From Desulforhopalus sp. (lineage in GTDB: Bacteria > Desulfobacterota > Desulfobulbia > Desulfobulbales > Desulfocapsaceae), in contig JANJUM010000104.1 in assembly GCA_024710585.1 (NCBI GenBank), positions 1 to 36,541 of the forward strand: a stretch of 36,541 nucleotides of DNA. The letters run 5' to 3'. Numbering within the stretch: position 1 is the stretch's first letter; each line of letters opens with the position of its first letter. This document shows positions 1,530 to 36,541 of this stretch, one piece after another. The notes under the pieces are model-generated. The model had not been told where the DNA came from and made no database searches. It was given only the letters and a program-made list of their open reading frames with translations. The translations under genes and the position numbers were made by a program.

Positions 1530-4487
1530 CCGGGCCTCGTCGGCAAGGAGGATGACCCCGAGGCGGCTGCGCCCGTCGACGCGCAGCACCAGGGGCGCGG
1601 TGGCGCGCAGGTGCACTGTGTGCGGGGTCGTCCCGACCTCCGTCAGCGACTGCAGGGCTTCCGGGGTGAAACGGTCCTGCGGGTGGACGCCGATATTGAA
1701 GTAGTTGATGCCCAGCGAAGCGATGTTGTGGAAGAAGTGCGAGCCCTGTGAGGGGTCGGCGTGGATGGCCGGGTGGGTGGTCTCGACGATGGCGCCGACC
1801 CCGCAGATCTCCTTCCAGGTCACCGGCACCCCCAGCCAGGGGTCGGCCGAGCCCCAGCGGCCCGGGCCGACGAGGATATACCTGCGCCCCTCGTCCAGCA
1901 GTCTGCTGTTGATGCCGCCGAGCTCGGCGGCGATGTCCCGGGTTTTCGCCGGCTCGAAGCTTTCCGGCCTGACATAGACGAGGTCCGTCATGGTGCGGTT
2001 GTCGGTGTTGCCGAGGGCCTGATGGCAGAGGCAGAAGGCCCGCCCCTGCTCAGCCGGGGGTATGGTCACCTGGAGCATCTCCTCGCGGGCGCTCATCGGG
2101 CGGATCTGCAGGACGGCGAGGCGCGCCCGGCCCGCGGGGGCCTGACCGAGGTCGACGGCGAACTCGATTTCCACCGGGCAGCCGAGGCCCTTTTTGCCAA
2201 AGTCGAGGAGCAGGTCGATGGCCTCGGCCAGCGGATAGGACCGGTATTTGAGGATGGCGGCGAAGGTCGGCACGGCCAGTCCGTGGGGCTGGTAGCCATC
2301 GCGGATGCGCTGCTCGACAGGGTCGTAGCTGCTGAGGAGGAACTGCACGGCCGGGTCGTCGCATGCTGTGGCGATGTCCTCCTGGCGCAGGGAGTCGGCC
2401 TCGTCCGCGGTCCCTTCCTGCCCCATGGAGAGGGCGTAGAACTGCTGCTGGGCATTGTCGAGGATGTCGGCGACGGTGCTGCGCTGGGGCAGGATCTCCG
2501 GGTGGCGCGGCGAGAAGCGCAAGGTCTTCTCGCCCTCCATGACCGCCTTGCCGAGGCCGATGGCGATGCTCACCACGCCGTCCTCGGGGCGCATGGCTGC
2601 GAAGGGGTAGTAGTTGAGGGACTGGGCGACGCCGGAGATGGCCGGGTAGAACAGGTCGCCGTGACGGCTGCCGACCACTTCCTGGATGATCACCGCCATC
2701 TTTTCCTGTTCTATCTGGTTGCCGACGCGGCGCGAGAAGCCTTTGGGCGCCTGGAAATAGGTCGAGGCGTAGACGTGGCGGATGGCGTTTTCGAGCTGCC
2801 GCAGGCGTTCTGCCGGGTTGTGGTGGTCGTTGGCCACCATGGCGGTGTGGTAGAGGCCGGCGTAGGAGCGGAAGCGCGCGTCTTCGAGGAGGCTTGAGGA
2901 GCGTACCGCCAGCGGGTAGCGGGCCTGCTGCAGGTAGTGGCCGAGCTGCTGGCGCAGCCGCGGCGGGAAGATTGCCCTGGCAAAGCGCCGCTCGGTCTCG
3001 CGGTCGCCGAGGTCGAGGCCGGCGAGGTTGGCCAGGCCGTTGTCGGCGATGAAGGCGTCGAAGGCGTCGGTGGTCAGGATCAGGGTCTGCGGCACGACGA
3101 TGTGCAGACGGTCGAAGCCTGCCAGCTTTTCCTCGTGATGGTGCAGCAGGGCGGAGAAGAAGGCCAGGCCGCGTGCCTTGCCGCCCAGGGAACCCTTGCC
3201 GATCTTGGCGAAGTTGGTGTCGGGGTCGAAGCGCTCGCGGTCGAAATTGACGATGATGCCGCGCTGTCGGGCGATGCGCTTCTCGCGGATGATGTCGATG
3301 AGGTTGCGGCGGTGCGCCTCCACGGTGGCAAATTCGGAGTCGCGCAGCGGCCGCACGCGGGAGGCCAGCTCGATCTCCGCCAGGGTGTAGAACCAGCGTG
3401 AGAAGTCATTGTGGCGGCTGTGCAGGAGGAAGGACTCCTGGGGGATGGTGGCCAGTTTCTTCTCGAGCGCGTAGAGGTTGCCTGCCCGGTCGATGGCCGA
3501 GCCGTCCGGCATGCGGAAGACGAAAGGCCCGTAGCCGAGGTGCTCGACGAGGAAGGTGCGCACGCTCTCGCGCAGCGACGGGGTGTTCTTGTCGAGGAAG
3601 AGGGCGGGGATCTCCATGGCATGGCGGGCGTTGCCGCTCTCCGAGCTGGTCAGCAGCAGGGGGATGTCGAAGCGGTCGGCCTTGATGTGGCGCAGCAGTT
3701 CCAGGCCGGCGGTGGCGTCGAGGCGCTGCTGGCGGGGGTAGCGCATGTCGGAAATCACCCCGAGGACGAAGGGCTTGTAGCGCTCGTAGAGGGCCAGCGC
3801 CCTCTCGTAGGAGTGGGCGAGGAGGATCTTCGGGCGAGTGCGCATGGTCAGCAGGCGGTGCTCCTCGTTGAGGCCCTCGTCGATCAGCGACTGCACTTCG
3901 ACTACCAACTCCTTGTAGAGGATGGGCAGCATCAGCGACAGCGAGTGGGGCGAGTCCTCGACGAGGAGGATGACCCGCACCCCGGCGGTGGCGGTGTCGG
4001 CGGCGACGTTGTGGCGGTCTTCGATGCTCTTGACGATGGCGAGGAGGATCTCCGCCTGTCCCGACCAGTAGACCACCAGGTCGAGGCACTTGCGCAGCTC
4101 GTGCCAGGCGGGGGATGCCTCGGGCATGGCCTCCTGGTGGGTGAGAAGCACCACCGGCATGCCCGGTTTGGCCTCCTTGATGCTGCGCCCGAGGGCATAG
4201 GCCTCCTCGTCCACCGCCTGCGAGAAGATGATCGCCAGGTCGAAATCGAGGTCAGGGGAGTGCGCCAGGGCCTCGGCGAGCGACGACACCCAGATGAGGC
4301 GCGGCGGCCGGCTGAGATTGAGACCGCGGTATTCGCTGACGATCTGCTCGGAGATGCGGCAGTCCTCCTCCATGATCCACGCCTCGTAAGGGGTGCCGAT
4401 GAGCAGGATGCGCTGCACCTTGATCTGCATCAGCTCGTGAAAGAGCTTGAAACGGGAACTGAGTCGATTCTTTTCGATGGGCAGCAT
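1512..4487 (-). CDS. Receiver-domain PEP/pyruvate-binding (PEP-synthase-like ATP-grasp) protein
   Basis: Large 991-residue cytoplasmic protein. The N-terminus holds two receiver-like folds. The first (around residues 15-150) looks degenerate. The second keeps an acidic pair (VEDSP), a phospho-acceptor-type Asp in GVISDMRYP, a Ser/Thr in LLTSSES and a Lys in FLDKN. The middle and C-terminus match the nucleotide-binding domain of PEP synthase/pyruvate phosphate dikinase (GKGSLGGKARGLAFF, AVRSSSLLEDA, YAGLYHT, EIEFAVD, LQIRPM). I see neither the swivelling phosphohistidine domain nor the PEP-binding TIM barrel, so it should not be a complete PEP synthase. The ATG at 4487 starts a receiver-like sequence; the frame extends to a TTG at 4730 through Arg/Pro-rich, unlikely sequence. 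The Shine-Dalgarno is weak. Function unknown; a signalling or phosphotransfer role is inference. Confidence 0.8.
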   Translation of the reverse strand: MLPIEKNRLSSRFKLFHELMQIKVQRILLIGTPYEAWIMEEDCRISEQIVSEYRGLNLSRPPRLIWVSSLAEALAHSPDLDFDLAIIFSQAVDEEAYALGRSIKEAKPGMPVVLLTHQEAMPEASPAWHELRKCLDLVVYWSGQAEILLAIVKSIEDRHNVAADTATAGVRVILLVEDSPHSLSLMLPILYKELVVEVQSLIDEGLNEEHRLLTMRTRPKILLAHSYERALALYERYKPFVLGVISDMRYPRQQRLDATAGLELLRHIKADRFDIPLLLTSSESGNARHAMEIPALFLDKNTPSLRESVRTFLVEHLGYGPFVFRMPDGSAIDRAGNLYALEKKLATIPQESFLLHSRHNDFSRWFYTLAEIELASRVRPLRDSEFATVEAHRRNLIDIIREKRIARQRGIIVNFDRERFDPDTNFAKIGKGSLGGKARGLAFFSALLHHHEEKLAGFDRLHIVVPQTLILTTDAFDAFIADNGLANLAGLDLGDRETERRFARAIFPPRLRQQLGHYLQQARYPLAVRSSSLLEDARFRSYAGLYHTAMVANDHHNPAERLRQLENAIRHVYASTYFQAPKGFSRRVGNQIEQEKMAVIIQEVVGSRHGDLFYPAISGVAQSLNYYPFAAMRPEDGVVSIAIGLGKAVMEGEKTLRFSPRHPEILPQRSTVADILDNAQQQFYALSMGQEGTADEADSLRQEDIATACDDPAVQFLLSSYDPVEQRIRDGYQPHGLAVPTFAAILKYRSYPLAEAIDLLLDFGKKGLGCPVEIEFAVDLGQAPAGRARLAVLQIRPMSAREEMLQVTIPPAEQGRAFCLCHQALGNTDNRTMTDLVYVRPESFEPAKTRDIAAELGGINSRLLDEGRRYILVGPGRWGSADPWLGVPVTWKEICGVGAIVETTHPAIHADPSQGSHFFHNIASLGINYFNIGVHPQDRFTPEALQSLTEVGTTPHTVHLRATAPLVLRVDGRSRLGVILLADEARPRPAA

Positions 4488-4790
4488 GGCGTTGGCGGGG
4501 GCTGAGGCTGGAGGGGCCTGCCGGCGCGGCAGTGGTCGCGGCCTGCTTATCCTTTGTAGAGTTCCAAAATCTTGCGGATGCGGTGGGGGTGGAGGACGAG
4601 TATCACCAGCCCGGCCGCCGCTTTTGTCGCGGGCTCGTGTCCGTCCGCCCTCCTCCGCCTGCCGATGCCGCTTCTCCTTGCACCTATGGGGACATGATAC
4701 GTGCTGACCTACCCTAGAGACATATACCAAACAAAAAAACGGTCATGTGTCGAGAGAATCGGGCGGTGGCGCTAAAAAAGAGGCGCTTGG

Positions 4791-4826
4791 GCGCTCTCGC
4801 GCCGGGTGTGCCCGTCGCGAGAGCGC
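4791..4826. repeat. Perfect 11-bp inverted repeat
   Basis: GCGCTCTCGCG (4791-4801) and CGCGAGAGCGC (4816-4826) are exact reverse complements around a 14-base loop that itself contains GGG/CCC pairing. Read on the minus strand, a run of six T follows about 12 bases after the stem, so it could be a second terminator for the minus-strand operon ending at 4925. An operator role is also possible. Confidence 0.5.
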
Positions 4827-4876
4827 TGTCGAGCGGGAGGCGTCTGGCGAGCCGTTCGGGCGGCGTGCGGAAGGAA

Positions 4877-4908
4877 CAGCGACGGCCACGGGGGCGCGGC
4901 CGTCGCTG
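4877..4908 (-). terminator. Hairpin after the peptidase-hydrolase gene
   Basis: CAGCGACGGCC (4877-4887) and GGCCGTCGCTG (4898-4908) form a perfect 11-bp stem with a 10-base loop. It starts 16 bases past the minus-strand stop at 4925. On the minus strand it is followed by TTCCTTCC, an imperfect U-tract. It probably ends the two-gene minus-strand unit 8018-4925. Confidence 0.6.
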
Positions 4909-4924
4909 CTGACATGGGGGCAGG

Positions 4925-6994
4925 TCAGGCGGCGTCGAGATTCTGGCGCAGGCTGATCCGTGATGTGAGGGTGCGGGCGAAGTTCAGTTCCGCCCGCGAG
5001 GTGTCCTTGCCGAGGATGCGGGCAAGCGTCGCCAGCACCGTCGCCTTGTCGTCGTCGAAGGCGCCATGGTGCGCCGCGCTGGACCCATCCGCCGACCCCG
5101 GCGGGACGGTGTTCGGGGCGCGCAGCCAGGTGCCCTTGCCGTTGAGCTGGAAGAGTTCGAGCAGTTCGCCGTCGGCGAGCAGGAACTTCTCCATGCCGAG
5201 GATCGGCTCGCCGTCCGGTTGCAGGACCGGGATGCGCGGGGTCTCCTCGAAGGCGTTGGAGACAAGGTAGAGGAGCGATTTGTTGTAGATCTTGCCGCAG
5301 TTGTCGTCCTGCTCCGCTTTATCGGTGAGGGTGAACAGGGTGAAGTCGCCGATGGCGCCTCGGCGCAGCAGTGGCAGGTAGGTGGCCTTGAACAGTTTGG
5401 TGGTGCAGGCCGGCGCCCACAGGGTGCAGCTGGCGATGTTCACCCCGAGGCCGCTGACCCCGGCCTCTGCCAGGGGGCCGCTGCTTATGGGGCCGCTGGC
5501 GGCGAGGTACTGTGCCAGGGGGGCATGGAAGATGCTCCCGGCGCTATGGCCGACGAGGTGCACCTCGACATCCGCCATCTCCTTGCAGAGGAGGGCGATC
5601 TCTTCGGCGACGAGGCGCGCCCCGCCGCTGGCGGCGGTCGTCGCCCGCAGGGCGTTCTCCTTCATCTCGTCCCACTCCGCCTTGCCGGTGCAGAGCCGTG
5701 CGATGGGCTCCAGGGCGTCGTCGAGGCGGTCGAGCATGAAATCCTTGGTGGCGTCGAGCAGACCTTCCGGCTTTCGCCGCCGCGTGGCGTCTTCGAGCAT
5801 GTTTTTCATGGTCGACCAGTAGTCGCTGTGCCAGATGAACGCCAGGGGGTAGCACTGGGCGTCGAGCATCGCCCGGCGATAGTCTGCGACGCGCTGCAGG
5901 GCCGCCTCTTCGCCGACCAGCCCGCCATGGGCATAGATCACCAGGCGCCGTTTCTTCCACCCGGCAGTGATGCGGGGGAAATCATGGCGCAGAATCTCGC
6001 GGACCATGTCCGCCGAGGTGCCGATATTGCCTCTGCTGTTGAGCTGGCCATCGTTTCTCAGGCTGATGACATGGGGGCGGATTTCGTTGTAGTGATAGGC
6101 TCGGGACTGTACCGCTCCGGCAACCGAAGCCTGCGTCGTCTGTGGCGATTCGGGGAGGTTGACCGGGACGCCGAGGCGCGCCACCCAGACGTCGCTGCCG
6201 TTGGCGAGCCAGTCCTCGTAGGAGATATGGGCATAGCCCTGGAAGCCCCACTTCCTGCCCCAGGAGTTCTGGACCCAGAAGCCGTCCTGGTCGTAGGCGA
6301 CAATGGCGAAGGCATGTCCGCCGAGCAGGCCGGCATCGAGGGGGATCCTGCCGTCCGCGCCGACCCTTTCCCAGCCCTGGTGCACGGTGGCGCTGGCGTA
6401 CAGGATACCGACTTCGGTGATGGCGGCATGCATCGCCACCAGGCTCTTATGGTTGACCCGGAAATAGGCCCCCAGGGGGCGCCGCGCCGCATCGCGGGTC
6501 ACCTCGTGGCTGAGCACCTGCGGCAGGTCGGAACTGGACCCCCATACCGTATTGGCACAGACGCCGTGCTTGTGCCAGCCCTTCATCGCCCCGCGGCAGC
6601 TCGACCCCTCGTAGTCCTCGCCGGCCCACTCGTCATAGCGGCGCGCGTTGGCATAGAGCATGCGCGGGCTGACCTCGACGTTGTCGGGGACGACCTTGCG
6701 CACCCTGAGGAGGTAGTTGGCGACCGTGGCTAGCCCGTACCCGGTGCAGGCACCCTCGCGGCCCTGGTCGAGAATCGGCACCTGAGCGGCGCGGTAGTCT
6801 TCGAGGTCGCGGCGCAGGGGGACTTCCACCAGGGTCGGCTCATACATCTGGTCGCGGAAATCGATGCCGTCCGGGCGGACGTTGAGGACGCGGGTGCCGC
6901 GCGTTGCCTTCGCCCTGCCGCCACCCCCCTGGGAGGGCACCTTGCCTCGCGGGCTCCTGGCGGGTTTCCTCGTCTTGGCTGCCTTTTCTTCCAT
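4925..6994 (-). CDS. Papain-like C1 peptidase fused to an alpha/beta hydrolase
   Basis: A 689-residue two-domain protein. Residues 1-45 are Lys/Arg/Gly-rich and look disordered; no signal peptide is evident. Residues about 55-280 match a papain-family (C1) peptidase: DQGREGACTGYG supplies the oxyanion-hole Gln77 and catalytic Cys83, GGHAFAIVAYD supplies His227, and QNSWGRKWGFQGY supplies Asn243. Residues about 345-600 look like an alpha/beta hydrolase: an HGG oxyanion segment (YAHGGL, 354-359) and the nucleophile elbow GHSAGS with Ser484; the Asp/His partners are not assigned. The start is well supported: GGAGG lies just upstream of the ATG. It follows the phospholipase-like gene by 49 bases and is probably co-transcribed. 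Both catalytic sites appear intact, so two activities in one chain are predicted; substrates are unknown. The integrase neighbourhood suggests horizontal transfer. Confidence 0.85.
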   Translation of the reverse strand: MEEKAAKTRKPARSPRGKVPSQGGGGRAKATRGTRVLNVRPDGIDFRDQMYEPTLVEVPLRRDLEDYRAAQVPILDQGREGACTGYGLATVANYLLRVRKVVPDNVEVSPRMLYANARRYDEWAGEDYEGSSCRGAMKGWHKHGVCANTVWGSSSDLPQVLSHEVTRDAARRPLGAYFRVNHKSLVAMHAAITEVGILYASATVHQGWERVGADGRIPLDAGLLGGHAFAIVAYDQDGFWVQNSWGRKWGFQGYAHISYEDWLANGSDVWVARLGVPVNLPESPQTTQASVAGAVQSRAYHYNEIRPHVISLRNDGQLNSRGNIGTSADMVREILRHDFPRITAGWKKRRLVIYAHGGLVGEEAALQRVADYRRAMLDAQCYPLAFIWHSDYWSTMKNMLEDATRRRKPEGLLDATKDFMLDRLDDALEPIARLCTGKAEWDEMKENALRATTAASGGARLVAEEIALLCKEMADVEVHLVGHSAGSIFHAPLAQYLAASGPISSGPLAEAGVSGLGVNIASCTLWAPACTTKLFKATYLPLLRRGAIGDFTLFTLTDKAEQDDNCGKIYNKSLLYLVSNAFEETPRIPVLQPDGEPILGMEKFLLADGELLELFQLNGKGTWLRAPNTVPPGSADGSSAAHHGAFDDDKATVLATLARILGKDTSRAELNFARTLTSRISLRQNLDAA

Positions 6995-28932: not shown

Positions 28933-29163
28933 ATGCTTATCGGTACTGTCATGACTACCTTTCTCTTCACATTGCTGCTGTCTTTTGTCGTCGTCGTGGC
29001 TGTCATGTTCCTGGTCAGCTACTGCAAGGGGCGGCGCCCCGGCAGGCACGGCCTGACCGGCATGTGCCATAAGACCGGCGGCGCCGCCTGCTGCAGCTGC
29101 AGCGAAGCGGGGCAGGCCCTTCCCCGGGGCGGGACCAAGGCTCCAGGCCGGCAGGGGCGATGA
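28933..29163 (+). CDS. Small Cys-rich membrane protein, possibly NqrM-like
   Basis: Using the ATG at 28933, a 76-residue protein with one membrane helix (TTFLFTLLLSFVVVVAVMFLV) and a cytoplasmic-type tail rich in Cys: SYCKG, GMCHK, ACCSCS. The layout of one helix followed by a Cys cluster resembles NqrM (DUF539), the iron-delivery factor for Nqr maturation. FeoB-associated small proteins look similar, so the call is tentative. The frame is open to 28759, but the upstream part is not protein-like. The Shine-Dalgarno is weak, and the stop overlaps the next ATG (ATGA). Nqr lies 5 kb upstream on the same strand. Confidence 0.5.
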   Translation: MLIGTVMTTFLFTLLLSFVVVVAVMFLVSYCKGRRPGRHGLTGMCHKTGGAACCSCSEAGQALPRGGTKAPGRQGR

Positions 29164-30980
29164 GCGGGCGCGTGCACGTGGCGGCGGGGCAGGAGGCGGC
29201 GAGAGCGGGCATGAAGCCGCTCATCTCCGCCTCCGCCCAGCCCAACGCCCTCACCGAGCGCATCAAGGAGCTCAACTGCCTCTACGGCATCTCCAATCTC
29301 CTCGAAAACAACGGCGTCTCCCTGCCGTGGATTCTCAGCCGCGCCGTCACCCTCATCCCCGCCGCCCTGCAGTTTCCCGAGAAGGCTTGCGCCAGCATCA
29401 CGCTCGACGGGGGCGAGTACTTCTCGGCCAATTTCCGCAAGACCCCGTGGAGCAGCAAAACGCCGATCATGCTCGACGAGCACCAGGTGGGCGAGCTGGA
29501 AGTTTTCTATAGCGAGGAGGTGGCCGGGGACGCCCATGGGCTGTTCCTCGAGGAGGAGCGCCATCTGCTGCGCGCCATCGGCGAGCGCCTCAGCCGGGTC
29601 CTGGGAATGAAGCTCGCTGAGGAGGCGCTGAAGGAAAGCGAGGAGCGCTACCGCATCCTCATGGAGCAGGTCACCGACGGCGTCGCCCTCATCCAGGAGG
29701 GGCTGCTGTGCTATGTCAACCCGGTGTTCTGCCGCATGTTCGACCTGCCCTCGGCCCACCTGGTGCTCGGCCGCCCGCTGAGCGAGGCCCTGGCGGGGGC
29801 CGGGGCCGATGTCATGCGCATCTTCCCGCAGGGGGTGGCCGAGGACGGAGGCGAGCAGGTCCACGCCGTGCATCGGCCTGGCGGGACCATGTGGGTGCAG
29901 GCCTGCCACCGGCCTATCGCCTTCAAGGGGCGCCCGGCATTGTTGTCGACCTTCAACGACGTCACCCAGATCAAGCAGCAGGAGGTGGCGGCGCAGAACC
30001 TGGCGCGAAAGCTCACCGACGAAAACCGCGTGCTGCGCTCCTCGTTCAGGGACCGCTACCGTTTCGGCGAGATTCTCGGCCGCTCGCCGCTGATGCAGGA
30101 GGTCTTCGCTCTCATCCTCAAGGCGGCGGTCACCGACGCCAGCGTCGCCATCTTCGGGGAGTCGGGCACCGGCAAGGAGCTGGTGGCGCGGGCCATCCAT
30201 GACAACAGCCGCCGCAAGGACCACCGCCTGGTGGCCGTCAACTGCGGCGCCGTCCAGGAAACCCTGTTCGAGCGCGAGTTCTTCGGCCATCGCAAGGGGG
30301 CCTTTTCCGGCGCCCATGCCAGCGCCGCCGGCTACCTCGACATGGCCGACAAGGGCACCCTCTTCCTCGACGAGGTGGGTGAGCTGACCCTCGCCATGCA
30401 GGCCAAGCTGCTGCGGGCCATCGAGGGCGGCGGGTACCGGCCGGTGGGGGGCACGGCGACGGTGGCCGCCGATTTCCGCATCATCTCCGCATCGAACGTC
30501 GAGCTGGCCGAGAAGGTCGGCAACGGTCAGATGCGCAGCGATTTCTTCTACCGGCTGCAGGTCATCGCCATCCGCCTGCCGCCGCTGCGCCAGCGGCGCG
30601 AGGACATCCCCCTGCTCGTCGACCACTTCGTGCGCCGCATGTCGCCCTCCGCCGCCCCGGCGAAGATTCCCGGCCATGTCATGGATATCCTCGTCGACTA
30701 CCACTGGCCGGGCAATGTCCGCGAGCTGCGCAACGTGCTGCAGCGCTATCTCTCCCTGGGGCGCATCGAGTTCCTCGCCCCCCAGCCCATGGCTGGACCG
30801 GCCTCTCCCGCCTCTCCCGCCAAGGGGGGCGCTTCTCTCGACCTGCCGGCGGCGGTGCGGCAAGTGGAGGAGCGGATGATCGCCGAAGCCCTCCACATGA
30901 CCGCCGGCAATCGAACCAAAGCCGCGTCCCTGCTTGGTATTTCCCGCAGAGCCCTGTTCCGCCGCCTCGGTTCCGACTGA
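29160..30980 (+). CDS. Sigma-54-dependent activator with GAFSGA loop
   Basis: A 606-residue enhancer-binding protein. Residues about 25-155 look like a GAF-type sensor, 160-285 a PAS domain ([20 protein letters not shown]...), about 300-530 the AAA+ domain with GESGTGKE and [11 protein letters not shown], and the C-terminus a Fis-type helix-turn-helix ([20 protein letters not shown]). The sigma-54 contact loop reads GAFSGA rather than GAFTGA. The start is AGGGGCG-ATG overlapping the preceding stop; Met18 is an alternative. Tandem palindromes and a perfect -24/-12 promoter follow within 225 bases, so it most likely controls the pnt-aspA operon. Confidence 0.92.
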
Positions 30981-31839: not shown

Positions 31840-32994
31840 ATGCTCATCGCCATCCCCAAAGAAATCCTTCCCGAGGAAAAGCGTGTCGCCGTCACCCCGG
31901 AGACCGTCAAGAAATACGTCGAGCTCGGCTTCGCCGTCAATGTCGAGCAGGGCGCCGGCGCCGGCATCCGCATCTCCGACGACGATTACAAAAAGGCCGG
32001 GGCCAACATCACCGCCGACGTCGAAGCCCTCTATGCAGCGGCGGACATCGTCCTCAAGGTCAAGCAGCCGGTGTATAACGAGCAGCGGCGCAAGCACGAG
32101 GTGGAGATGCTGCCCGCGGGCGCCATCCTCATCACCTTTCTCCACCCGGCGGCCCCGGGCAACCACGCCATGGTGCGCAGCCTGCGGGCGAAGAACATCA
32201 CCGCCCTGACCATGGACTCCATCCCCCGCATCTCCCGCGCGCAGAGGATGGACGCCCTGTCGTCGATGAGCGCCATCACCGGCTACAAGGCGGTGATCAT
32301 GGCCGCCAACAGCCTGCCGAAGTTCGTGCCGATGATCGGCACGGCCATCGGCACCATCAAGCCGGCGCAGTTTCTCGTCATCGGCACCGGGGTCGTCGGC
32401 CTGCAGGCGGTGGCCACCGCCAAGCGGCTGGGGGGAGTGGTCAAGACCCTCGATATTCGCGCCAACGCCGCTGTCGAGGCCGAGAGCCTGGGCGGCAAGC
32501 CGATAGCCTTCGAGGTCCCCGAAGAGCTGGCCACCGCACCGGGCGGCTATGCCCGGTCGCTTGACGGGAACTGGCTGGAGAAGGAACGCCAGCTCATCGC
32601 CCAGCACCTCGCCGACGTCGACGTAGTCATCCTCAGCGCCCTGGTGCCGGGGGAAGTGGCGCCGATTCTCATCACCGACGACATGGTGGCGACGATGAAG
32701 CCCGGCTCGGTGATCATCGACGTTTCCGTCGACCAGGGCGGCAACTGCGCCGCCACCGAGGCCGGCGCCTTCCGCGAGCGGCATGGGGTGGAGATCTGCG
32801 GCATCCAGAACATTCCCGGGCGCATGGCGGTCCACGCCAGCTGGCTCTACGCCCAGAACATGTGCCACTTCATCGAGAACCTCTTCAAGAAAGGGCATGG
32901 CGTCCTCGACCTCGACGACGAGATCGTGCGCAGCACCCTGGTCACCCATCAGGGCAAGATCGTCCACGAGGGCACGCTCAAGGCCATGGGCTGA
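31840..32994 (+). CDS. pntAA: Proton-translocating transhydrogenase subunit alpha 1 (dI)
   Basis: A 384-residue NAD(H)-binding dI subunit of the split, Rhodospirillum-type transhydrogenase. Motifs: IPKEILPEEKRVAVTPETV at the N-terminus, SRAQRMDALSSMSAITGYKAV, the Rossmann GTGVVGLQAVATAKRLG and LDIRANA, and IDVSVDQGGNC. The protein ends after domain I without membrane helices, as expected when pntAB is separate. The ATG at 31840 has GAGGA upstream; a GTG at 31804 would add a non-family extension. A strong terminator-like hairpin lies between it and pntAB. Confidence 0.93.
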   Translation: MLIAIPKEILPEEKRVAVTPETVKKYVELGFAVNVEQGAGAGIRISDDDYKKAGANITADVEALYAAADIVLKVKQPVYNEQRRKHEVEMLPAGAILITFLHPAAPGNHAMVRSLRAKNITALTMDSIPRISRAQRMDALSSMSAITGYKAVIMAANSLPKFVPMIGTAIGTIKPAQFLVIGTGVVGLQAVATAKRLGGVVKTLDIRANAAVEAESLGGKPIAFEVPEELATAPGGYARSLDGNWLEKERQLIAQHLADVDVVILSALVPGEVAPILITDDMVATMKPGSVIIDVSVDQGGNCAATEAGAFRERHGVEICGIQNIPGRMAVHASWLYAQNMCHFIENLFKKGHGVLDLDDEIVRSTLVTHQGKIVHEGTLKAMG

Positions 32995-33129: not shown

Positions 33130-33420
33130 ATGTCCAATATCCTCCTCATGCTCGCCGTCTTCCTCGGCGCGTTTTTGATCGGCTATGCGCTCATCTCGAG
33201 AGTGCCGCCCCTGCTGCACACGCCGCTGATGTCGATGACCAACGCCATCTCGGCCATCACCATCCTCGGCGCGGTGCTGCTCTTCGCCCAGCCCACCAGC
33301 CCGGTGGAAAAGGTCCTCGGGGGCATCGCCATCTTCACCGCCACCTTCAACGTCGTCGGCGGCTTCGCCGTAACCGACCGCATGCTGCGCCTCTTCCGCA
33401 GCAGAGAGCGGCAGAGCTGA
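33130..33420 (+). CDS. pntAB: Transhydrogenase subunit alpha 2 (membrane)
   Basis: A 96-residue membrane subunit with three predicted helices (ILLMLAVFLGAFLIGYALIS, SMTNAISAITILGAVLLF, GGIAIFTATFNVVGGFAVTDRML). It matches the PntAB part of dII, including the VPPLLHTPLMSMTNAISAI segment and the conserved FNVVGGFAVTDRML end. GGAG precedes the ATG. It contributes to the proton channel together with pntB, which starts 25 bases later. Confidence 0.93.
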   Translation: MSNILLMLAVFLGAFLIGYALISRVPPLLHTPLMSMTNAISAITILGAVLLFAQPTSPVEKVLGGIAIFTATFNVVGGFAVTDRMLRLFRSRERQS

Positions 33421-33445: not shown

Positions 33446-35434
33446 ATGACCGTACTCGTCGATTTTTCGGTAATCGCCGTCCTCATCCTCGGCATCAGCC
33501 AGTTCCGCCGGCCGGCCGGGGCGAGGCTGGGCAACTGGCTGGCCGCCCTGGCGCTGGGCTGCGCCTTCGCCCTGGTGCTCGCTCGCCACGGGGTGGACGA
33601 CGTCCGCACCGTCGCCTTCGCCCTGGCTGCCGGCACCGCAGCCGGCTACGCCCTGGCCAGGGTGGTCGACATGATCCACATGCCGGCGATGGTCGCCTTC
33701 CAGCATGGCGCGGGTGGTGTCGCCGCCTTCCTCGTCTCCCTGGTGGAGCTGACCCGTGTCGGTCACGGCCTCGGACTGATCGGCGAGATCTCCGGGGTGC
33801 TCGGCCTGGCCATCGGCGCGCTGACCTTCAGCGGCAGCATGATCGCCAGCGCCAAGCTCGCCGGGCGGATGCGGCAGGCGCCGCAGGTGCTCGCCGGCCA
33901 TGACGGTTGGGCCCTGTTCGTCCTCGTCGCGCTGTTCGTGGCGGGGGGCGCCTCCTTCTTCGCCACCGCCGGCCTGGCCCTGGCGCTTTACGTGGCGGTG
34001 ATCGCCCTCGGCGCCGGGCTCGGCGTCCTCGTCGCCATGCGTATCGGCGGCGCCGACATGCCGGTGCTCATCTCCGCCTTGAACGCCACTGCCGGTCTGG
34101 CGGCCTCGCTGTGCGGCATGGTCATCGCCAGTCAGTTGCTCATCGCCTTTGGCGCCACCGTGGCCGCGTCCGGCTCGATCCTCACCCTGGTCATGTGTCG
34201 GGCGATGAACAGGCCGTTCCGCGGGGTGATCATGCCGCGCTACAAGGCGGCGCCGGCGGCAGCCCGAGAGGCGGCGAAGCCGGCCCCTGCGATAGCGGCG
34301 GCGCACCCCGGGCCCAACTCTTCCCAGGGCGGCGCCCCCCCGGCCACCAGCGGACGGGACGACCTCACGGTGGCCGTCCTGGCCCTGGCTGAGGCGCGCA
34401 CGGTGATCTTCATCCCCGGCTATGGCATGGCCCTGGCCAAGGCGCAGCAGGAGGTGGCCAACCTCGCCGCCACCCTGATCGCCCGCGGCAAGACGGTGCG
34501 CTACGCCATCCACCCGGTGGCGGGGCGAATGCCGGGCCATATGAACGTGCTCCTCGCCGAAGTCGGCGTCGACTATGAGATGCTGGTGGAGATGGAGAGC
34601 ATCAACGAGGAGTTTCCCGCCACCGACTGCGTCGTGGTGGTCGGCGCCTGCGATGTGGTCAACCCGGCGGCCGTGGAAGTCGAGGGCACGCCGATCTCCG
34701 GCATGCCTATCCTCATGGCCCACCTCGCCAGGCGGGTGGTGTGCTGCAACTTCGACCTTCAGCCGGGGTATTCCGGGGTGGCCAACAGCCTCTATCTGCG
34801 CGGCAACGTCACCGTCCTCGAGGGCGATGCCCGGCACACCGTCGCCAGCCTGCACGAGCGTCTGCTGGCCGGCGGCGAGAAGAGCGCCTCCCACACCGCC
34901 CCCCCGACAGCACAAGACGCGCAGCGGCAGGCGGCCCTCGCCCTGGCCGGGGCGAAACGGGTGGTGATCATCCCCGGCTACGGCATGGCCCTGGCCAAGG
35001 CGCAGTTCGCCCTGGTCAAGCTGGCCAGCCGGCTGCGCGGGGGCGGGGCGACGGTCAATTATGCCATCCACCCGGTGGCGGGGCGGATGCCCGGCCATAT
35101 GAACGTGCTTCTCGCCGAGGCCGAAGTCGAGTACGAGGATCTCCTCGAGATGGAGGAGGCCAACCCGATGTTCGCTGATACCGACGTCGCCCTGGTGGTC
35201 GGCGCCTGCGACGTCGTCAACCCGGCGGCGGTGGAGGTGGAAGGCACGCCGATCTCGGGCATGCCGATCCTCCATGCCGACAGGGCGCGGCAGGTGATCG
35301 TCTGCAACTTCGACACCCGGCCGGGCTATTCCGGGGTCGCCAACCCGCTCTACCTCTACGAGAAAACCATTGTCCTCCCCGGGGACGCCAGGCAAACGGT
35401 GGGCGACCTCATCGCCCTCTTCGACGAAGTGTAG
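33446..35434 (+). CDS. pntB: Transhydrogenase subunit beta with duplicated NADP-binding domain
   Basis: At 662 residues, about 200 more than the usual PntB (462 in E. coli). Residues 1-265 are the membrane domain dII with about nine helices, including GGADMPVLISALNATAGLAAS and VMCRAMNRPF. An Ala/Pro linker (about 268-310) leads to a first dIII domain (about 312-475), then a short linker and a second full dIII (about 490-662). Both copies carry GYGMALAKAQ (325 and 511), IHPVAGRMPGHMNVLLAE, VVGACDVVNPAAVEVEGTPI and PGYSGVAN. Where E. coli has Lys-Arg-Ser contacting the NADP 2'-phosphate, both copies read Asn-Phe-Asp (435-437 and 621-623). AGGGAG precedes the ATG. No frameshift is seen; both domains look intact. 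Confidence 0.92.
   Translation: MTVLVDFSVIAVLILGISQFRRPAGARLGNWLAALALGCAFALVLARHGVDDVRTVAFALAAGTAAGYALARVVDMIHMPAMVAFQHGAGGVAAFLVSLVELTRVGHGLGLIGEISGVLGLAIGALTFSGSMIASAKLAGRMRQAPQVLAGHDGWALFVLVALFVAGGASFFATAGLALALYVAVIALGAGLGVLVAMRIGGADMPVLISALNATAGLAASLCGMVIASQLLIAFGATVAASGSILTLVMCRAMNRPFRGVIMPRYKAAPAAAREAAKPAPAIAAAHPGPNSSQGGAPPATSGRDDLTVAVLALAEARTVIFIPGYGMALAKAQQEVANLAATLIARGKTVRYAIHPVAGRMPGHMNVLLAEVGVDYEMLVEMESINEEFPATDCVVVVGACDVVNPAAVEVEGTPISGMPILMAHLARRVVCCNFDLQPGYSGVANSLYLRGNVTVLEGDARHTVASLHERLLAGGEKSASHTAPPTAQDAQRQAALALAGAKRVVIIPGYGMALAKAQFALVKLASRLRGGGATVNYAIHPVAGRMPGHMNVLLAEAEVEYEDLLEMEEANPMFADTDVALVVGACDVVNPAAVEVEGTPISGMPILHADRARQVIVCNFDTRPGYSGVANPLYLYEKTIVLPGDARQTVGDLIALFDEV
34418..35434 (+). 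repeat. Tandem in-frame duplication of the dIII coding segment
   Basis: The two dIII-coding segments are offset by 558 bases (186 codons). Example: ATCCACCCGGTGGCGGGGCG occurs at 34508-34527 and again at 35066-35085, and the following CATATGAACGTGCT is also shared. DNA-level identity is high in such blocks and lower between them, consistent with an old duplication held under selection or partial gene conversion. Confidence 0.88.
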
Positions 35435-35444
35435 GAGAAAGAAC

Positions 35445-36541
35445 ATGTCCGCCATATCGCGCATCGAAAAAGACTTCCTCGGCGAGAGGGAAATTCCCGG
35501 CTTCTGCTACTATGGCATCCAGACCTTCCGGGCCCTGGAGAACTTCCGCATCACCGGCACGGCCATTTCGCGAACCGCCGAGATGGTGCGGGCCCTGGCC
35601 CTGGTGAAGATGGCCGCCTGCCTGGCCAACCGCGACCTCGGCGTGCTCCCCGAGGACATCGCCGCGGCCATCGTCGCCGCCTGCAACGAGATCGTCGACG
35701 GCCGCTGGCACGAGCAGTTCGTCGTCGACCCCATCCAGGGCGGGGCGGGCACCTCCACCAACATGAACGCCAACGAAGTCATCGCCAACCGCGCCCTGGA
35801 ACTGCTCGGCCACGACAAGGGCGACTATGCCCGCGTTCACCCCAACAACCACGTCAACTGCTCGCAGTCGACCAACGACGTCTACCCGACCGCCTTCCGC
35901 CTCGCCCTGTACAACATGCTCACCACCTTGAGCGGCCAGGCTCGCTATCTCAGGGAGGTGTTCTCCGCCAAGGCCGCCGAGTTCGCCGATGTGGTCAAAA
36001 TGGGCCGTACTCAGCTGCAGGACGCCGTGCCGATGACCCTCGGTCAGGAGTTCGCCGCCTTCGCCACCACCATCAACGAGGATATCGAGCGCATCCTCGA
36101 GGCGCGTAACCTGCTCTGCGAGATCAACCTCGGCGCCACCGCCATCGGCACGGCCATCAACACGCCGCAGGGTTACGCCCGGGTGGCGGTGGAGCATCTC
36201 CGCCGCCTCTCCGGCATCGACTTCACCCTCTCGCCCAACCTCATCGAGGCCACCTGGGACACCGGCGCCTATGTGCAGATTTCCGGGGTGCTGAAGCGCT
36301 ACGCCATCAAGCTCTCCAAGATCTGCAACGACCTGCGCCTGCTCTCCTCGGGGCCGCGCGCCGGCTTCAACGAAATCGACTTGCCCAAGCTGCAGCCGGG
36401 CTCGTCGATCATGCCCGGCAAGGTCAACCCGGTGATCCCCGAGCTGGTCAACCAGGTCGCCTACCTGGTGGTGGGCGCCGATGTCACCATCTCCATGGCG
36501 TCGGAAAACGGTCAGCTGCAGCTCAACGTCATGGAGCCGGT
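35445..36541 (+). CDS. aspA: Aspartate ammonia-lyase (3' end outside window)
   Basis: Deaminates aspartate to fumarate and ammonia. The window holds 365 codons of an expected 470 or so; the frame is open to the edge. Motifs of the aspartase/fumarase superfamily: IEKDFLGEREIPGFCYYGIQT near the N-terminus, the QGGAGTSTNMNANEV block, NHVNCSQSTNDVYPT, GRTQLQDAVPMTLGQEF and the active-site signature GSSIMPGKVNPVIPE. The TLGQEF and KICNDLRLLSSGPRAG segments favour aspartase over fumarase. AGGAG (35433-35437) spans the pntB stop and serves the ATG at 35445, so it is in operon with the transhydrogenase genes. Confidence 0.94.
   Translation, partial: MSAISRIEKDFLGEREIPGFCYYGIQTFRALENFRITGTAISRTAEMVRALALVKMAACLANRDLGVLPEDIAAAIVAACNEIVDGRWHEQFVVDPIQGGAGTSTNMNANEVIANRALELLGHDKGDYARVHPNNHVNCSQSTNDVYPTAFRLALYNMLTTLSGQARYLREVFSAKAAEFADVVKMGRTQLQDAVPMTLGQEFAAFATTINEDIERILEARNLLCEINLGATAIGTAINTPQGYARVAVEHLRRLSGIDFTLSPNLIEATWDTGAYVQISGVLKRYAIKLSKICNDLRLLSSGPRAGFNEIDLPKLQPGSSIMPGKVNPVIPELVNQVAYLVVGADVTISMASENGQLQLNVMEP

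Follow-up and report, generated by a model that had tools for sequence, protein, structure and literature searches.

A transhydrogenase-like locus of Desulforhopalus with tandem dIII domains and alanine dehydrogenase residues: a candidate proton-coupled amino-acid dehydrogenase

The closest described relatives of the proteins considered here are the proton-translocating transhydrogenase PntAA-PntAB-PntB (R. rubrum, T. thermophilus; PntAB in E. coli) and L-alanine dehydrogenase (Ald). Transhydrogenases are recognized by PF05222/PF01262, PF12769 and PF02233 domains encoded in one cluster, an R-x4-Q-x2-D loop in dI, proton-path residues in dII, to which an Asn belongs, and one dIII per beta subunit with a KRS motif whose K-R contacts the 2'-phosphate. 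Ald and dI presumably share their nicotinamide-face stereochemistry. Excerpts of the published work attribute the specificity for NADP over NAD to loops D and E of dIII, KRS being residues 424-426 of E. coli PntB (PMC9529548), locate Ala1008 and Asn1009 of the human enzyme in the NADP cleft (PMC5026163), and place an Asp-Arg pair (PMC5742237) and His91 (PMC9529548) of dII in the proton path. For Ald, they report that changing R15, K75, H96 or D269/D270 abolishes activity (PMC10401832, PMC4691113). The two human residues are taken here as the A and N of the dIII motif GAND. Among the papers listed in a literature search by titles and abstract openings, in which subscription journals were sparsely covered, neither tandem dIII nor a PntA with Ald residues was described.

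The window, i.e. the whole stretch of 36,541 nucleotides from Desulforhopalus sp. that was analysed, encodes in this order a small conserved protein, PntAA, PntAB, PntB and a Lyase_1 protein (Table 1). All the transhydrogenase domain families are thus found in one cluster. The lyase gene presumably resembles an aspartate ammonia-lyase gene. The small protein had no Pfam match at E 0.001. It starts with DPFGNLxDWGPVL and has a HEAT-like look. Its gene lies just before pntAA in 13 loci, among them the window and the single-dIII locus L039; it is a possible accessory subunit. The PAS/sigma-54 activator is a possible regulator of the operon.

Table 1. Coordinates of the genes, domains and diagnostic residues of the locus in the window.
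Feature	Position	Strand	Evidence
PAS / sigma-54 activator	29160..30980	+	
Small conserved protein directly upstream of pntAA	31345..31788	+	
PntA part 1 (dI), 384 aa, with R-Q-D loop and Ald residues	31840..32994	+	
dI Arg15 (Ald R15; in canonical PntA too)	31882..31884	+	
dI Lys75 (Ald K75)	32062..32064	+	
dI His102 (Ald H96)	32143..32145	+	
dI loop R130-x4-Q135-x2-D138-x2-S141	32227..32262	+	
dI Asp298 (Ald D270)	32731..32733	+	
PntA part 2 (PntAB, 4TM, PF12769)	33130..33420	+	
PntB variant, 662 aa: dII (TM), dIII copy 1, dIII copy 2	33446..35434	+	ORF, Pfam, AlphaFold model
dII membrane part (residues 1-264); GGADMP Asp, LNA Asn, MNR Arg, TM9 His present	33446..34237	+	
dIII copy 1 (residues 304-476)	34355..34873	+	repeat, Pfam, fold match
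GACD (canonical GAND), copy 1	34643..34654	+	
Loop E copy 1: C-N-F-D replacing x-K-R-S	34745..34756	+	
dIII copy 2 (residues 486-660)	34901..35425	+	repeat, Pfam, fold match
GACD (canonical GAND), copy 2	35201..35212	+	
Loop E copy 2: C-N-F-D replacing x-K-R-S	35303..35314	+	
Lyase_1 (PF00206) gene start, runs off the window	35445..36539	+	

PntB, the sole PF02233 protein found in the window's draft genome (95.82% complete), carries two dIII in one chain. A direct repeat of 300 nt (34372-34671 and 34930-35229; 75% DNA identity) covers most of the domain. PF02233 was matched in two stretches and both halves, searched singly, matched its positions ~293-454 (E 8.8e-71 and 2.4e-73). In the AlphaFold model, whose domain arrangement is unreliable (mean pLDDT 72.8, pTM 0.49), copy 1 matched the transhydrogenase dIII structure 4j16 chain C (Z 24.6) and copy 2 matched 1pno chain A (Z 24.2). 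These three lines of evidence confirm the complete second dIII claimed by the first-pass annotation, and the repeat spacing of 558 nt bears out its offset of exactly 186 codons. The two copies of the tandem share 66-69% protein identity. The linkers before copy 1 and between the copies are of low model confidence and vary in length across loci, which is what tethers would look like. Outside transhydrogenases, the fold matches listed as nearest to model residues 486-662 come from sirtuins, with Z up to 14.6, and from ThDP-enzyme domains, the latter in agreement with a sub-threshold Pfam match of PntB to TPP_enzyme_M; fold families missing from the structure-match list are no evidence either way. 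An assembly or annotation artefact might be suspected in a draft of 276 contigs. This was ruled out as vanishingly improbable, since the copies, only 75% identical in DNA, are not an assembly echo and since the tandem, where a second assembly might have held a single dIII, recurs in isolates with complete-genome records, namely Desulfosarcina widdelii (twice), D. alkanivorans and Desulfosediminicola flagellatus.

Both copies retain the PGYGMALAKAQ and HPVAGRMPGHMNVLLAE stretches, which we take to be the nicotinamide side of dIII. In both, KRS is replaced by CNFD. Judged from the motif, K-R-S to N-F-D is the sort of change that a shift in preference from NADP to NAD would be likely to bring. 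The domains, initially annotated as NADP-binding with intact motifs, therefore keep the fold and the nicotinamide-side motifs but probably do not bind NADP, the K-R of KRS being absent in both copies. That the Lys of ALAKAQ makes up for the missing KR was considered and found unsupported, as relatives in which a single dIII carries CNx(D/N) show Gln or His at this position (L039, L043-L046).

The neighbouring dI is the more telling oddity, one that the first reading had missed. It contains the R-x4-Q-x2-D loop, presumably the hydride-transfer loop of transhydrogenases, together with the catalytic R15, K75, H96 and D270 of Ald. A total of 101 dI-like rows were aligned, including alanine dehydrogenases of the same genomes, and rows under 330 aa were dropped from the residue count. 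K75, H96 and D270 occurred together in 39 rows with the R-Q-D loop, window included; in the remaining 36 (canonical) R-Q-D-loop rows K75 was found in 0, D270 in 0 and H96 in 1, without intermediates. As variants are defined by K, H and D jointly, the telling result is the lack of mixed rows and not 39/39, and both sets hold repeat genomes under several locus ids (about 34 and 34 distinct loci). K75 is present in 14/15 Ald rows and the R-Q-D loop in 0/15. R15 is not discriminating, being Arg in 34/34 readable of the 39 variant rows and in 18/19 readable of the 36 canonical ones. The alignment of K, H and D was also obtained by BLASTP of the window dI against an Ald of the same genome (31% identity) and by separate global alignments with Ald rows (4/4 in agreement), and the contexts VK(E/Q)P and (V/I)DQGG are common to both proteins. 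NCBIfam places the window dI closer to PntA than to Ald: it scored 373.1 bits with PRK09424 (cut-off 383) and 324.7 with TIGR00561 (cut-off 444.4), both of which model the longer one-chain PntA and are a weak test here, against 177.9 with the L-alanine dehydrogenase model TIGR00518 (cut-off 391.85). All three scores are below cut-off. An Asp stands at the end of beta-2, presumably the mark of a NAD-type dI.

The type of dI and the motif of dIII go together. Among loci with an Ald-type dI and both sites readable, the Arg of KR is absent from dIII in 34/35, against KR kept in 31/31 loci with a canonical dI; these counts leave out loci having a missing or unparsed side (L010, L031, L079, L084 and the like) and the pairs matched by genome only (L049 with L125, L106 with L130), both of which fit the rule. 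The exception, L047 from Dehalococcoidia (3995-5416), combines an Ald-type dI and GACD with KRT in loop E and is a possible intermediate in which NADP(H) would be linked to amino-acid chemistry. In G226 (L056/L109), the tandem protein has KRS in both copies and goes with a canonical dI, hence tandem dIII can occur without the amino-acid feature. An Ald-type dI accompanies four of the five readable tandem groups (Desulfobacterota, Gemmatimonadota, the G1009/G1072 pair and the G307/G192 pair). CNLD loops are also seen in G1130, whose tandem is truncated. In the dI tree, with 8 Ald rows as the root, all 19 canonical rows form one clade (100/99) within a grade of 19 variants; support for the basal grade is weak, the bootstrap is unsettled and the Ald root is a point where two long branches join. 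Read literally, this topology would make the Ald residues ancestral and lost by the NADPH-making transhydrogenase.

Thirty related loci were found on the genome contigs scanned; according to domain matches, they contain repeated dIII in 16 cases and a single dIII in 14. Two of the 16 have three copies, and in L037 the membrane part lies in a different frame. In this locus (3944-5811) a frameshift puts dII and the two dIII in separate frames, a split also seen in G011; the two may be a single genome that contains an error, or the break may be real. In the dIII tree (70 rows), copy 1 sequences cluster together (18 rows, 100/95), as do copy 2 sequences (17 rows, 100/99), both clades spanning loci of Desulfocapsaceae, Desulfosarcinaceae, Desulfobacteraceae and Geopsychrobacteraceae; the grouping of the two clades as sisters is weak (90/22). 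The simplest reading of these sequences would be one old duplication that has since been kept. Later on, the Desulfopila/Desulforhopalus records acquired a further duplication (three dIII), and one Desulfamplus lost copy 1. A Gemmatimonadota MAG duplicated its dIII separately, its own two copies pairing at 100/99. L049 falls on the canonical side although the dI of its genome is Ald-type. L109 (5925-7928, minus strand), with tandem dIII and canonical KRS and dI, is the earliest branch of the canonical dI clade; its dIII is outside the dIII tree and its repeat probably has an independent origin.

Copy number reaches four in G307 and G192, two genomes of one genus with frames of 1030 and 1029 codons. 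Their loci L107 (6077-9166, minus strand) and L055 (1453-4539, plus strand) each hold four near-alike dIII with the loop CNYD and GAND retained, and the copies within each protein look homogenized. G1009 has three dIII, G1072 at least three (cut by the contig end) and G226 two. Tandem dIII is rare overall. It was found in 4/297 genomes of a phylum sample and in 7/257 of the window's class, the window's own genome counted in both; an eighth match in the class (G621) is single. The Gemmatimonadota set gave 1/150, the centre genome itself, and sets centred on other loci gave 2/245 (Acholeplasmataceae), at least 1/235 among the best-scoring matches listed (Myxococcota; G1130, cut by the contig end), none among the matches listed for 251 genomes (Dehalococcoidia) and 0/149 (Pirellulales; PF02233, 64 with a match). 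Phylum names follow the titles of the records, and diverged or contig-split copies may be overlooked at the thresholds of these surveys.

Amino-acid nitrogen genes were found near 12/33 scanned variant loci versus 0/16 canonical loci (30 neighbour proteins), in a comparison that was unblinded and unmatched: ORFs were hand-picked, some family-less ones are maybe on the wrong strand (e.g. both of L108), variant loci come from several phyla and the 16 canonical loci from the window's genus, family or order. The scan covered 33/36 variant loci (without L023, L027, L046) and 16/16 canonical ones. For variant neighbours, either Pfam (E 0.001 or E 1e-10) or NCBIfam was used, the positives at L107, L110 and L111 coming from NCBIfam; canonical neighbours were identified with Pfam at 1e-10 only. 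The positive genes encode the lyase of the window, glutamate dehydrogenase family proteins (L028, L035, L040, L111), an arginase family protein (L030), a hydantoinase/oxoprolinase (L034), a lysine-2,3-aminomutase C-terminal domain (L038), aminotransferases (L047, L107, L217) and an alanine racemase (L110). L028 and L035 are close relatives and not independent, and the arginase-family and hydantoinase positives are borderline. A glutamate-cysteine ligase and a chorismate-binding enzyme at the canonical locus L202 were left uncounted. In addition, an MreB/Mbl-like gene lies downstream of the pnt operon of L026 (6478-8268), with members of the same sequence cluster in L027, L037 and L032. It is followed by a gene for a DUF5698/DUF2179 protein whose cluster is also present in L024 and L027.

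The four-dIII operon of G307 (L107) adjoins genes for a class III aminotransferase and for ABC transporters like those of sulfonate or taurine, all below curated cut-offs. Taurine respirers are described as using Tpa plus Ald in excerpts of two studies (PMC10507020, PMC8667426). No separate Ald above the family cut-off was found in G307 or G192, where the best match is the dI itself. Among 19 genomes checked, at least one separate Ald gene is present in 11, the window's genome having two, and none was found in G307, G192, G176, G1009, G1072, G360, G353 and G355. Since most of these genomes, the window's included, possess a separate Ald, alanine may not be the substrate and is one candidate only.

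We tentatively propose, at somewhat less than even confidence, that the locus encodes a proton-coupled dehydrogenase of amino acids, deep-branching and with its extra dIII acting as tethered carriers of NAD(H). In such an enzyme, dI with its Ald residues and bound NAD(H) would oxidize, or form reductively, an amino acid such as alanine or a similar one. Once the amino acid is gone, dIII would dock on dI through the R-Q-D loop and exchange a hydride. Devoid of the NADP motif, dIII would then carry NAD(H) and swing to dII, the release of the nucleotide being tied to proton crossing. The second dIII, like the third and fourth of relatives, would be an additional equivalent carrier on a flexible tether. 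The proton-path residues of dII are kept in the window (the Asp of GGADMP, the Asn of LNA, the Arg of AMNR and the His of TM9, which is Asn in some relatives), and the usual swing of dIII between dI and dII is therefore expected. Should the amino acid and dIII both act on one and the same face of the nicotinamide in dI, they would have to take turns. Coupling is the weak point of the proposal: free exchange of NAD(H) at both sites would only produce a proton leak, so dI would have to retain its nucleotide.

The locus might instead encode an ordinary NADH:NADP+ proton-translocating transhydrogenase with a spare dIII, in which other residues hold the 2'-phosphate and the Ald residues are a relic. 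The gene set, the fold, the R-Q-D loop and the proton-path residues are indeed those of PntAB, G226 pairs tandem dIII with canonical KRS and dI, and the dI tree, by making the Ald residues an ancestral retention, is compatible with a relic. We nevertheless consider this explanation unlikely, although it keeps some weight: KR is gone from both copies, the Asp at the place of Ser426 should repel the phosphate, K, H and D are joint in the 39 variant rows of several phyla and never in the 36 canonical ones, and several genomes hold a separate canonical PntB as well (G003, G005, G009, G011, G360). The loss of KR and the Asp at the end of beta-2 would also suit an NAD(H):NAD(H) device devoid of amino-acid chemistry, such as a redox-gated proton leak or a sensor for which the extra dIII are a nucleotide store. 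This is improbable in our estimation, as it leaves the Ald residues and the amino-acid neighbours unexplained and selection would hardly preserve a device that does nothing but leak.

The separate clades of copy 1 and copy 2 in Desulfobacterota loci raise the further prospect of split roles, one dIII being catalytic and the other regulatory or structural, and a regulator had been suggested for one copy in the first-pass annotation. The idea was rejected and is given very little credence, because a single diagnostic column separates the copies (V vs A beside the GACD strand; 85% threshold, 18 vs 17 rows). The nicotinamide-side motifs are moreover intact in both copies, copy number ranges from 1 to 4 and copy 1 has been lost in L033. 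Differing by one column, the copies are read as equal carriers in the proposed dehydrogenase. The related suggestion that four dIII per dimer alter the stoichiometry stands in part, as the dIII:dI ratio must change.

If the proposed dehydrogenase exists, amino-acid oxidation or formation would be a membrane energy-coupling step in sulfate reducers and in some bacteria of several other phyla; to our knowledge, amino-acid dehydrogenation is outside the usual list of proton pumps. It would also suggest a route by which the transhydrogenase originated from an alanine dehydrogenase, and the Pfam domains of the alanine dehydrogenase family are already named AlaDh_PNT. The wider proposal, which we hold more doubtfully still, is that an Ald-type dI, the transhydrogenase proton channel and 1-4 NAD(H)-carrying dIII make up a new coupling site and a deep-branching state, from which the NADPH-making transhydrogenase would have arisen by loss of the amino-acid site and gain of NADP recognition. 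The copy number of 1 to 4 offers a natural series on how dIII movement limits the enzyme rate. Even without the amino-acid idea, annotation of such loci as a source of NADPH is doubtful, since the NADP motif is lost and no canonical PntB accompanies the variant in the complete genome of Desulfosarcina widdelii.

Compared with known systems, the locus resembles the PntAA-PntAB-PntB transhydrogenase in gene order, in the folds of dI, dII and dIII, in the R-Q-D loop, in the proton-path residues and in the nicotinamide-side motifs of dIII. Contrary to PntAB, it has two dIII per chain, CNFD for KRS, GACD for GAND, and a dI with K, H and D of Ald that scores below both NCBIfam PntA cut-offs. With L-alanine dehydrogenase (TIGR00518) it shares the catalytic R, K, H and D and their VK(E/Q)P and (V/I)DQGG contexts, but the R-Q-D loop, the membrane and dIII partner genes, the 31% identity and the sub-cut-off score set it apart. 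The sirtuins (DHS-like NAD/FAD-binding fold) bind NAD and are the nearest non-transhydrogenase entries in the list of fold matches to dIII; no functional kinship is claimed. Tandem lipoyl domains of 2-oxoacid dehydrogenase E2 are one to several equivalent, flexibly linked carriers whose number depends on the species. By analogy, the dIII copies may likewise be repeated tethered carriers of variable number, although the fold is unrelated and the carrier would be a nucleotide in a Rossmann-like domain and not lipoate. Overall, this set of proteins has some of the defining features of PntAB and of Ald and lacks others: we place it in neither family, and it would work like a cross between the two.
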